DNA from: Chloroflexota bacterium
Lineage (GTDB): Bacteria; Chloroflexota; Limnocylindria; Limnocylindrales; CSP1-4
Direction: 5' to 3'
DNA: 42,037 bases
NCBI GenBank assembly: GCA_003141955.1
Contig: PLOC01000022.1
Coordinates: 9,181-51,217 of the forward strand
Shown: positions 14,595 to 16,905 of the stretch, in pieces
Layout: the number at the start of each line of letters is the position of its first letter
Numbering within the stretch: the first letter of the stretch is position 1
Translations under genes and position numbers: made by a program
The notes under the pieces: generated by a model
What the model was told of the DNA's origin: nothing
Seen by the model: the letters and a program-made list of their open reading frames with translations, nothing else
Database searches by the model: none

Positions 14595-14836
14595 TCCGCC
14601 GGCGGCCGGCGTGAGGACAACTGCCCGAGGCAGACAGTAGCCTGGCCGAAGAGTGGCACGCTCAGACGGGATGAGGGGTACTCCGCAACGAACGTCCCGG
14701 CCGGTTCACGATCCCGCGCTCGTGCCGATCGTGGCCGACGGCACGAGCGGCGACAGCCTCGGGGCGATGCTGTTGGCGCGCGAGGCGGTTGAGCTTATCG
14801 AGCAAGCCGATCAAGAAGGCGACAAGACAGCGAGCC

Positions 14837-15508
14837 TCACGCCGGGCGCATAGCCACGAGTCGGAGTGACGCGTCAACGACGGCTGGATAGAGTCGCGAG
14901 GTGCGCAGCGACTCGGCCAACGACTCCGGCAGGTCGCCTACCGACGAGAAGCCGGCGGCAGCTCCTCCGGGTCCAGACATACAGAAGATTGTGGACCGGG
15001 GCAGCAGGTCTCGGGCGAGCACGTATTCGAGGGTGGTGCCTTCCTCCATACCGCCGACGAAGAAGGCGGCCACAGGCTTGGCCTCATAGAGCATTGCTAT
15101 GCGCATGACTTCCAGGCTGGCTAGGCGCTCGAGGCCGCGCTCAGGAGAGTCGCCGGGCACCGCTTCGGTCCACCGAATCGTCCCGTAACCTTCGCGCTCG
15201 AGGCGCAGCGTCTCATCTGTCACCAGCGAGGCGAACAGCCGGGACTGGTAGATCGTCACTCGACTCGGGTCCCGGGTTGAGCACTCCGCGGCCACCATCA
15301 GGATGAGAGGGGAGATCGTGGGATGGCCCCCGAAAACAAGGCGACCGCCACCAGTCAGAACGCCTCGGGCAATGGCCACGACGGCATCGGCAACGTCGCC
15401 AGGGCGGGCCTCCCCGTATTGCGTCGCCCTGTCCACGGACGGGATGCTGGCCGATAAGAAGATGAACCGACCGGCGAGATCGAGTGGCTGGATCGCGAGC
15501 CTAGTCAT
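14837..15508 (-). CDS. SLOG-domain protein, last gene of a TIR operon
   Basis: A 223-aa single-domain Rossmann-like protein. Seen: a first strand FIFLSASIPS (16-24), GGRLVFGGHPTISPL (54-68), VTIYQSRLF (84-92), IRWTEAVPGD (111-120), VAAFFVGGMEEGTTLEY (146-162) and MSGPGGAAAGF (177-187). This pattern fits the SLOG superfamily, whose members bind or process nucleotides such as cyclic ADP-ribose isomers (ThsA of Thoeris) or act as nucleosidases (LOG). The GGMEEGTTLE segment resembles the LOG catalytic PGGxGTxxE motif, so enzymatic activity is possible. There is no SIR2, Macro or membrane effector domain. Its ATG overlaps the stop of the preceding gene (ATGA, 15505-15508), so it is co-translated with the 83-aa protein and, upstream of that, the TIR protein. 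Confidence 0.75.
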   Translation of the reverse strand: MTRLAIQPLDLAGRFIFLSASIPSVDRATQYGEARPGDVADAVVAIARGVLTGGGRLVFGGHPTISPLILMVAAECSTRDPSRVTIYQSRLFASLVTDETLRLEREGYGTIRWTEAVPGDSPERGLERLASLEVMRIAMLYEAKPVAAFFVGGMEEGTTLEYVLARDLLPRSTIFCMSGPGGAAAGFSSVGDLPESLAESLRTSRLYPAVVDASLRLVAMRPA

Positions 15509-15756
15509 GGCGTTTCCAGTGCCGCGGTGACTGCTTGTATCAGCGTCGTTGACAGACCGCGGTCGGCCGCAATCCAGGCTAGCAGGTCACCAGGGGCCGG
15601 GTCGAGATCGGCGCTTTCATGCACCAGGTGACCATGCGGGACGGCGCCTCCCTCCGCAAGCCCCCACCGCGACTTGAGTCTTGCGCGAACGGCTGCGAAC
15701 ACCTGCCGCGCCCATGAGTCCGAGCCTTGGCGGATGGCGACGACGGTGGACGCCAT
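15505..15756 (-). CDS. 83-aa unknown protein between TIR and SLOG genes
   Basis: ATG at 15756, TGA at 15507-15505. It begins 2 nt after the stop of the TIR gene and overlaps the SLOG start by 4 nt, so it is the middle cistron of a compact operon. Sequence features: MASTVVAIRQGSDSWARQVF, a basic RARLKSRWGL helix, a His-containing VPHGHLVHESADLDP segment, then LLAWIAADRGLS and a C-terminal helix. There is no membrane segment or known motif. Its size and position recall small effector-associated or adaptor domains found in conflict systems, or it could be a regulator of the SLOG protein. No family was recognised; the function is left open. Confidence 0.75.
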   Translation of the reverse strand: MASTVVAIRQGSDSWARQVFAAVRARLKSRWGLAEGGAVPHGHLVHESADLDPAPGDLLAWIAADRGLSTTLIQAVTAALETP

Positions 15757-15758
15757 CG

Positions 15759-16148
15759 CTACTGAGAGAGCAACTTCTTGAGGTTGTCCCAGTCCCATCG
15801 GTAGGTTCGGCCGCCGTCCGGAACGGCCCAATCTTCCGAGCCGTCTCGGTACCCGATGATCTGGAACTTGCGCTTTCCTAGCTCGTTCGCCATCTTGACT
15901 TCCTCGCGGACCCCGGGAGCGGATCGCGTCTTGGGGCCGAGCATCACGATGAAGACGTCGGCGCGGTTGATGGCAGCCCGAGCCTTCGCTTCCCACTCCC
16001 GCTGGGGCTGCGCCTCCTTGAGGGACCCGTCGGTCACCTCGAACGGGGAGCCCGGATGCTCCGCCTGTCCGATGATGAAGGCCTTGAGTGCCCGGTCATT
16101 GTCGAAGTCGAAGCTGACAAACACCCGAGTCTTGGCCATCCCTCGCAC
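15759..16148 (-). CDS. ThsB-like TIR protein (DUF1863/MTH538 type)
   Basis: 129 aa from GTG 16148, or 126 aa from ATG 16139; both lie near purine-rich sequence. It is a stand-alone TIR-like fold: first strand TRVFVSFDFDNDRALK (7-22), FEVTDGSLKEA (36-46), W52 and a helix, then INRADVFIVMLGPKT (60-74) and GVREEVKMANELGK (79-92) with the candidate NAD-cleaving Glu at 82-83, and later QIIGYRDGS. This is the pattern of the DUF1863 TIR-like family, which includes the Thoeris sensor ThsB that makes a cyclic ADP-ribose signal after phage infection. It is the first gene of a three-gene operon with the 83-aa and SLOG genes, which suggests signal production here and signal reception or execution by SLOG. 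Confidence 0.85.
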   Translation of the reverse strand: MRGMAKTRVFVSFDFDNDRALKAFIIGQAEHPGSPFEVTDGSLKEAQPQREWEAKARAAINRADVFIVMLGPKTRSAPGVREEVKMANELGKRKFQIIGYRDGSEDWAVPDGGRTYRWDWDNLKKLLSQ

Positions 16149-16181
16149 CCATCCCCGTGCTTGTCCGGTTGGGCATGGTCC

Positions 16182-16224
16182 TCTGATTGGGAAGCAGACA
16201 CTCTGCCAGCTGAGTTACTCCCGC
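16182..16224 (-). pseudogene. 5' half of a tRNA-Gly(CCC) gene
   Basis: On the minus strand the sequence starts GCGGGAG (acceptor), TA, ACTC/GAGT D-stem around AGCTGGCA, G26, then TCTGC-TTCCCAA-TCAGA as anticodon arm. The anticodon is CCC, and the closing pair is a C/T mismatch. After position 43 the tRNA pattern stops: no variable loop, no TTC-containing T-arm and no CTCCCGC 3' acceptor follow within the next 60 nt. Instead the TIR gene begins 33-43 nt downstream. This is a truncated tRNA gene, perhaps a scar of site-specific integration or recombination. Confidence 0.7.
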
Positions 16225-16238
16225 TCGGAGTAGCGACA

Positions 16239-16244
16239 GTTATA
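16239..16244 (-). promoter_or_regulatory. Probable -10 box of the tRNA-Gly fragment, driving the TIR operon
   Basis: TATAAC on the minus strand, within GATATAACTG, lies 14 nt upstream of the tRNA 5' end, the normal place for a tRNA promoter. A weak -35 (TTCGCC) lies 19 nt further up. Since the tRNA is cut off, transcripts from here would run straight into the TIR, 83-aa and SLOG genes. Confidence 0.5.
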
Positions 16245-16303
16245 TCAGATCAGGCTTTATGGGGGCGAAGGCCAACACGATCACCCTCTATGAAAAGGAG
16301 CCC

Positions 16304-16483
16304 GCTGGCTCGGTCGACCTGTCGCCCGTGCTGCGGGCGATGGGCGTCCCGCCCGGGGAGAGGATGGGCGCGCTGCGCTTCAGCCTGGGGCGCGGAACGA
16401 CCGAGGCCGAGATCCGCGACGTGGCAGAGCGTCTGATCCGAGTCGCCGAGACCATGCCGGCCGTTCCGGCTCCGATCGCCTGA
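16304..16483 (+). pseudogene. C-terminal remnant of a cysteine desulfurase (NifS/IscS type)
   Basis: The plus-strand frame contains AGSVDLSPVLRAMGVPPG, then MGALRFSLGRGTTEAEI and RDVAERLIRVAETM. This is the characteristic C-terminal end of NifS/IscS-like cysteine desulfurases (xxVLxAMG, LRxSLGxxTTEAEID). An open frame from ATG 16259 covers it, but the PLP-binding and cysteine-loop regions (over 300 residues) are absent. It lies head to head with the truncated tRNA, 80 nt away. It cannot be functional. Confidence 0.75.
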
Positions 16484-16547
16484 CGCGGCGAGTGGGCGCC
16501 GTGCATGATCGCTTGTTCGTGCCCGAGCGGGATGGGTGGTGCCAGGC

Positions 16548-16775
16548 TTAGCCATCTTTGGGTCCGTCTGCACTGAGAAAGACTTCCAGCTCGCCGACTG
16601 CGCCTCGCAACTCATCGTTGGCGCGACTCCACACCCGCCAGTTGGCGCAGCTTCGCTCCGACCACCCGGCCGTAGTCCCCGGAGCCAGGTCAAACGCCTG
16701 GTGAAAGGCGCGCGTTTCCGAGCTTCGAGTCGCGGCTACCCGAACACTGAGACGACGGAACTCGCCGACATCCAT
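16548..16775 (-). CDS. Small hypothetical protein (75 aa)
   Basis: ATG at 16775 has a good GGGAGG site 4 nt upstream (minus strand), the main support for this gene. The product starts MDVGEFRRLSVRVAATRSS, continues with TRAFHQAFDLAPGTTAGWS and CANWRVWSRANDELRGA, and ends in an acidic VGELEVFLSADG. It is probably helical and cytosolic. No family was recognised. It lies 130 nt beyond the stop of the GH5-like gene, on the same strand. Confidence 0.5.
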   Translation of the reverse strand: MDVGEFRRLSVRVAATRSSETRAFHQAFDLAPGTTAGWSERSCANWRVWSRANDELRGAVGELEVFLSADGPKDG

Positions 16776-16905
16776 GGAACCTCCCGCAGCGGAACGGACC
16801 GCCTGCTGCGGAGTGACTGTACTCCCGGCGCGGCGCCTACTCGGCCCCGAGGGCCGCCTAGTGACATTCGCAGCACCACGCGCTCATCGGGCGGCACGAT
16901 GACTC

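Follow-up and report, generated by a model that had tools for sequence, protein, structure and literature searches.

We found that the TIR/SLOG operon of a Chloroflexota genome is preceded by an exact 5' half of tRNA-Gly(CCC), which is very probably a displaced tDNA fragment marking one junction of site-specific integration into the anticodon loop of that tRNA gene, by modules that bring a replacement 5' half with them. The fragment lies in a window of 42,037 nucleotides (the whole stretch of DNA analyzed, on contig C75 of the source genome, G000), and the pairing of half and operon is common to at least four species. We observed directly the identity of the fragment and its breakpoint in the anticodon loop, sites with and without the insertion in relatives, and integrases beside the restored tRNAs. 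In the mechanism that we propose, small modules (~1.3 to 8 kb), some with a tyrosine integrase and some without, would insert just past tRNA position 38; the leader and 5' half copy belonging to the module would restore the tRNA at the far end of the module, and the resident leader and 5' half would stay upstream, aimed into the module. Repeated insertion would produce tandem 5' halves. Judging from its position, the adjoining integrase family may catalyze the reaction, modules lacking an integrase may be mobilized in trans, and the window fragment was presumably parted from its intact tRNA by rearrangement or relocation.

A stranded tRNA-Gly(CCC) half in the window

The half proximal to the TIR gene (minus strand, 16224-16187) reads GCGGGAGTAACTCAGCTGGCAGAGTGTCTGCTTCCCAA and continues downstream with TCAGAGGACC..., its 3' terminus being the anticodon loop TTCCCAA. 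All 38 nucleotides are identical to the intact tRNA-Gly(CCC) of the same genome (C114:52240-52165), and extending the comparison to position 43 gives 42/43 identity (98%), since the first five nucleotides past the breakpoint, TCAGA, match tRNA positions 39 to 43 at four of five. The original prediction of a tRNA-Gly(CCC) 5' half behind a TATAAC box and upstream of TIR is thus borne out. A pattern search of the genome with the half, allowing up to three mismatches, returned five matches against none for the backwards pattern used as control; hence, the window half stands far above chance, and the background-level tRNA similarity named beforehand as grounds for giving up the prediction was not what we found.

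In the window, ARAGORN made no tRNA call, and the window copy scored 14.8 bits with the tRNA model of Rfam, under the cut-off of 29, so the feature is half a tRNA; with no complete cloverleaf by either tool, it does not qualify as a functional tRNA gene. Matches to Rfam RT-15 and WT1-AS_2 in the window were far under threshold and were disregarded. Neither an integrase, nor an intact tRNA-Gly, nor a far junction was found within the window, and therefore a complete island cannot be drawn there: what the window holds is a stranded fragment.

Table 1. Features of the window and tRNA pieces elsewhere in the source genome (plain numbers are window positions)
Feature	Location	Strand	Evidence or remarks
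Displaced 5' tDNA fragment, tRNA-Gly(CCC) positions 1-38 (very probable reading)	16187..16224	-	Exact match to own intact gene, C114
Non-tRNA stretch from breakpoint to TIR start codon, presumed arm of inserted DNA	16140..16186	-	40-41/47 conserved in relatives
Leader core CTGATCTGATATAAC, with presumed -10 box TATAAC at 16244-16239	16239..16253	-	Motif also in 18 aligned orphan leaders
ThsB-like TIR gene, 126 aa from conserved ATG	15759..16139	-	PF08937, PADLOC ThsB
83-aa ORF between TIR and SLOG, doubtful	15505..15756	-	No family match
SLOG cluster3 protein gene, 223 aa	14837..15508	-	PF18180, E 5.5e-25
C-terminal remnant of a cysteine desulfurase/selenocysteine lyase gene, adjoining the leader	16259..16483	+	Weak, consistent PDB matches
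Block common to G003:C39 and G014:C174, in different surroundings	14717..16903		BLASTN and edge comparison; internal deletion in G003
Orphan 5' halves of tRNA-Gly(CCC)	Window (C75), C26:7758, C114:55197, C114:57385
tRNA-Gly(UCC) 5' piece	G000:C90:36657-36705		L138, L158
tRNA-Gly(UCC) 3' piece	G000:C75:7142-7192		L017; ~2.0 kb left of window start
tRNA-Gly(UCC) 3' pieces	G000:C24:252 and C24:805		L148

The TIR/SLOG operon and its surroundings

On the minus strand the order is ...GCCTGATCTGATATAACTGTCGCTACTCCGA, the tRNA half, TCAGAGGACC..., and the TIR ATG at 16139. This ATG, 47 nt past tRNA position 38, is the start conserved in four species, and it is a likelier start than the GTG at 16148. 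A TIR gene close downstream of the half had been predicted and is there. The TIR protein matched PF08937 (E 8.7e-06; 26.5 bits, cut-off 21.2) and the PADLOC ThsB model (E 3.6e-07), and it is 90 to 92% identical in three relatives (94 to 96% at the DNA level). The small ORF that follows has no start codon in G003 and lies in a region partly deleted in G017. No other domain was detected in the SLOG protein with Pfam, nor any match with PADLOC.

Among the 107 genomes of the family, the SLOG protein, and with it the operon, is restricted to four, all of this genus, each with the TIR gene and the tRNA-Gly half upstream (4/4 carriers). The half is decayed in the three other species with the operon (30 to 33 of 38 positions identical, 1 to 6 gaps), and the surroundings of the operon vary among its four genomes. 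In relatives bearing the operon, an intact tRNA at this locus, which had been put forward as the case against a fusion of tRNA half and operon, was not found, and the fusion stands. No TIR cassette still sitting at a tRNA locus was found in the wider relatives (the 107 family genomes). A scan of named genomes for the SLOG protein gave one record, Chloroflexi bacterium isolate fen_1026 from a fen metagenome, which is the same contig as G017:C36.

The gene remnant abutting the leader runs on the strand opposite to the tRNA half. The best 16 PDB chains listed for it all belong to the cysteine desulfurase/selenocysteine lyase family (E 0.009 to 0.041), and a search against Pfam gave no match. At the ends of the shared block (14717-16903), a search for terminal inverted repeats returned only matches of 8 to 9 bp (E of at least 0.7).

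Other tRNA pieces in the same genome

The source genome contains five exact copies of the tRNA-Gly(CCC) 5' half, one in the intact gene and four orphans (Table 1). On C114, two of the orphans share the strand of the intact gene and precede it by 3.0 and 5.2 kb, thus forming a tandem array. A tyrosine integrase gene (PF00589, E 4e-23; C114:52757-53314) begins 88 bp away from the intact tRNA, and the two are divergently oriented. After this integrase comes a pair of nucleotidyltransferase-like genes, the second without a Pfam match, which we take to be AbiE-like.

With 31 tRNA genes of the genome as queries, more pieces broken close to the anticodon came to light, both 5' (Arg-TCG twice, Ala-GGC, and Pro-TGG, to which a separate comparison added Gly-UCC) and 3' (Lys-TTT, Arg-TCG, Cys-GCA, Arg-CCG, and Gly-UCC), indicating that integration at the anticodon loop hits several tRNA genes. 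One Arg-TCG 5' piece and the intact gene, which share a strand, delimit an island of 13.2 kb with the piece at its upstream end (C108:9164-22425; L149, L150, L153), and an integrase directly follows the intact tRNA-Arg(TCG). The second Arg-TCG piece is at C42:11756, and both continue into the same arm, tgcccggacgtatgctctat. tRNA-Gly(UCC) is present in the source assembly, a draft that also lacks other expected tRNAs, as pieces with no intact gene; G002 and G003 have the gene entire. An intron-bearing Gly-UCC gene at C90 was considered and rejected, as Rfam found neither a tRNA nor an intron there.

Sites with and without insertion in relatives

By pattern search, 8 of the 21 genomes available for the genus carry more than one copy of the half, as does a smaller number of genomes from the rest of the family; all of these genomes are fragmented drafts, and some orphan halves are close to contig ends. 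An intact tRNA with a matching upstream 5' fragment in the same orientation occurs on C114 and in G002, G003, G011, G017, and G020, and tandem arrays end in an intact tRNA at G002:C3, G017:C47, G003:C45, G020:C13, and G011:C1. A flank encoding a beta-eliminating lyase (PF01212) adjoins the intact tRNA-Gly in G008 and G015; in G011 and G017 it adjoins a 5' half and then unrelated DNA, with 85 to 96% identity of the flank over 1.2 to 1.4 kb, up to the half. Likewise, the integrase flank adjoins the intact tRNA in G000, G003, G014, and G020 and a half plus foreign DNA in G002. The arms past the half are in turn common to different flanks (for instance, 84% over 274 bp between G011 and G004). Taken together, the comparisons of the same flank and the arms common to different flanks indicate that modules insert past the anticodon loop, bringing a new leader and 5' half.

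A tyrosine integrase lies inside the interval at C114:52757-53314, G003:C45, and G014:C136 and is missing from the other intervals. The cargo varies, from NiFe hydrogenase genes (G017), an MMPL transporter (G002), and an ABC transporter ATPase (G020) to metallo-beta-lactamase-fold and PIN genes. The NiFe-hydrogenase-type operon of G017:C47 is a tRNA-anchored cassette, which lies entire and codirectional with a tRNA-Gly half on one side and the intact tRNA-Gly on the other (L055:1811-7576). In G003:C150 (L050:3-499), a gene with a start that looks glycoside-hydrolase-like by eye begins ~45 nt past an exact tRNA-Gly half, a spacing nearly equal to that of the TIR gene in the window.

Several orphan halves in the relatives are, as in the window, distant from any intact tRNA. 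At G002:C26:50147, a solitary half is located between two genes at a synteny breakpoint, and in G011, G010, G001, and G016 the gene beside it shares a contig with the tRNA or half locus, at a distance of ~8 to 34 kb. Considering this breakpoint beside a gene of the tRNA locus, rearrangement after integration would be the simplest route to a detached half.

Leader and putative promoter

A TATAAC leader precedes all four orphan 5' halves of the source genome. A consensus scan of the window leader for sigma-70-type -35/-10 elements found no passing pair, and we speak of a promoter on account of TATAAC and its recurrence before the other copies. Each of the three relatives with the TIR operon matches the leader core at 14/15 positions, a sample too small to demonstrate selection, and in two of them the -10 box reads TATACC or TATGAC. 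The leader of the intact tRNA-Gly(CCC) has instead a GACGCTC...GAGCGTG inverted repeat without a recognizable -10. Leaders of this type, with no visible -10, are common to intact Gly-CCC, Ala-GGC, and Arg-TCG genes (L011:1539-1580, L028, L036, L056, L126, L002).

By its position, use of the putative tRNA promoter by the TIR/SLOG operon is plausible. In a hand count based on gene calls from our own codon-usage script, the first gene past 21 orphan halves was codirectional in 9 cases and opposed in 12, so the capture of a tRNA promoter appears incidental as a rule, even if it is true of the TIR operon. General promoter capture, which we had entertained as a candidate, is unsupported by this count. 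The original prediction had the operon taking over a tRNA promoter after recombination at the anticodon arm; recombination at the anticodon loop and a half with a tRNA-type leader upstream are retained from it, but a one-off capture is not, in view of site-specific module integration and of these gene directions.

Alternative explanations

The operon might instead be kept behind the half by selection for a constitutive tRNA promoter, with the half serving as a useful mRNA leader. The codirectional TIR start codon 47 nt downstream, the TATAAC core preserved at 14/15 positions in each relative, and an arrangement kept in all four genomes speak for it. We nevertheless consider it rather unlikely: the half has accumulated indels in three relatives (30-33/38) while the TIR DNA remains 94 to 96% identical, the -10 is altered in two of them, and genes past orphan halves are opposed as often as codirectional. 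The same indels, in 3/3 of the other species with the operon, count against the functional tRNA-half leader on the defense mRNA that had been suggested. The promoter can, for all that, be used without selection on the half. That leader and 5' half form a self-multiplying dispersed repeat, like a tRNA-derived SINE or MITE, would account for copies of ~70 bp at many chromosomal places, some of them solitary as at G002:C26:50147. It is improbable, however, as the copies recur as array junctions with common flanks and arms, the solitary G002 copy marks a break in synteny and has as its neighbor a gene that is near the tRNA locus in other genomes, and pieces of other tRNAs, both 5' and 3', are cut at the same point.

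Decay of a whole tRNA into a pseudogene, with no junction involved, could explain why TCAGA past the loop matches four of five tRNA bases, but we regard it as very improbable, because the 5' half is 100% intact and yet the T arm and the 3' strand of the acceptor are entirely gone, many copies share the identical cut point, and no ortholog with a recognizable 3' half was seen in the four operon genomes. Finally, it had been proposed that the operon recombined into the sole tRNA-Gly(CCC) gene, a loss tolerated since a UCC tRNA can read GGG. Such a recombination would fall at this breakpoint, but the intact tRNA-Gly(CCC) on C114 refutes this idea, which can practically be set aside, and makes the argument from wobble superfluous; moreover, Gly-UCC itself occurs only as pieces in the assembly, although this draft misses other expected tRNAs too. 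Integration into the anticodon loop by modules with a replacement 5' half is the reading that we retain.

Comparison with known systems

Modules with a 5' fragment and a replacement 5' half are a known but rare arrangement. In Islander, a 5' fragment was found in 159 of 3919 islands, of which 2083 were anticodon centred (PMC4383910). As in these islands, an intact tRNA is at one end and a 5' fragment at the other, in the same orientation and with the crossover in the anticodon loop, and some modules code for a tyrosine integrase. The modules described here, however, go down to 1.3 to 3 kb, several lack an integrase, and 5' halves occur in tandem; several tRNA genes are struck in one genome, and the fragment in the window lies apart from its tRNA. 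A review of archaeal recombinases states that bacterial tRNAs, once restored, almost always keep the promoter they had before and that integration at the 5' half is seldom seen in bacteria (PMC8371274). The archaeal pTN3-like integrases it covers resemble our case in that the 5' half is replaced, the restored tRNA is on an element-borne promoter, and the old promoter is aimed into the element, but those integrases are suicidal, being split on integration, whereas here the integrase gene is apart from the site. In the additive flexible genomic islands of Methylophilaceae (PMC10872708), too, a fragment of a single tRNA gene recurs between variable gene sets, but that fragment is the 3' end of tRNA-Lys (last 20 bp), and ours consists of the leader together with 38 nt from the 5' half.

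The TIR/SLOG operon recalls Thoeris, with a ThsB-like TIR (assigned by PF08937) beside a SLOG-domain protein, but there is no ThsA NADase and the SLOG partner is a stand-alone cluster3 protein without a PADLOC match. In integrons, small cassettes gather between repeated recombination sites beside a promoter, and cassettes likewise amass here between repeated sites near a promoter. The sites seen, however, are tRNA halves, with a tRNA anticodon loop in place of attI/attC; the integrases associated with them are of the ordinary phage type (PF00589), and cassette orientation is mixed. We regard it as possible, though still short of probable, that this Chloroflexota genus has an integron-like tRNA cassette system, in which small modules, each with a replacement leader and tRNA 5' half, would be handled by one integrase family acting in trans on several tRNA anticodon loops, every insertion stranding a working tRNA promoter before new cargo such as the TIR/SLOG operon. 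Our case departs from the known islands in its repeated 5' halves with leaders, its very small modules, and the several tRNAs involved. A literature search on islands driven by tRNA promoters yielded no useful account.

Replacement of the 5' end of a tRNA gene by an island is rare in surveys, since the newcomer must also supply a leader from which the tRNA can be expressed; in this genus such islands are recurrent and affect several tRNA genes. With every insertion, a tRNA promoter is left facing newly gained DNA, which raises a direct question: do stranded tRNA promoters switch on cargo such as defense operons?
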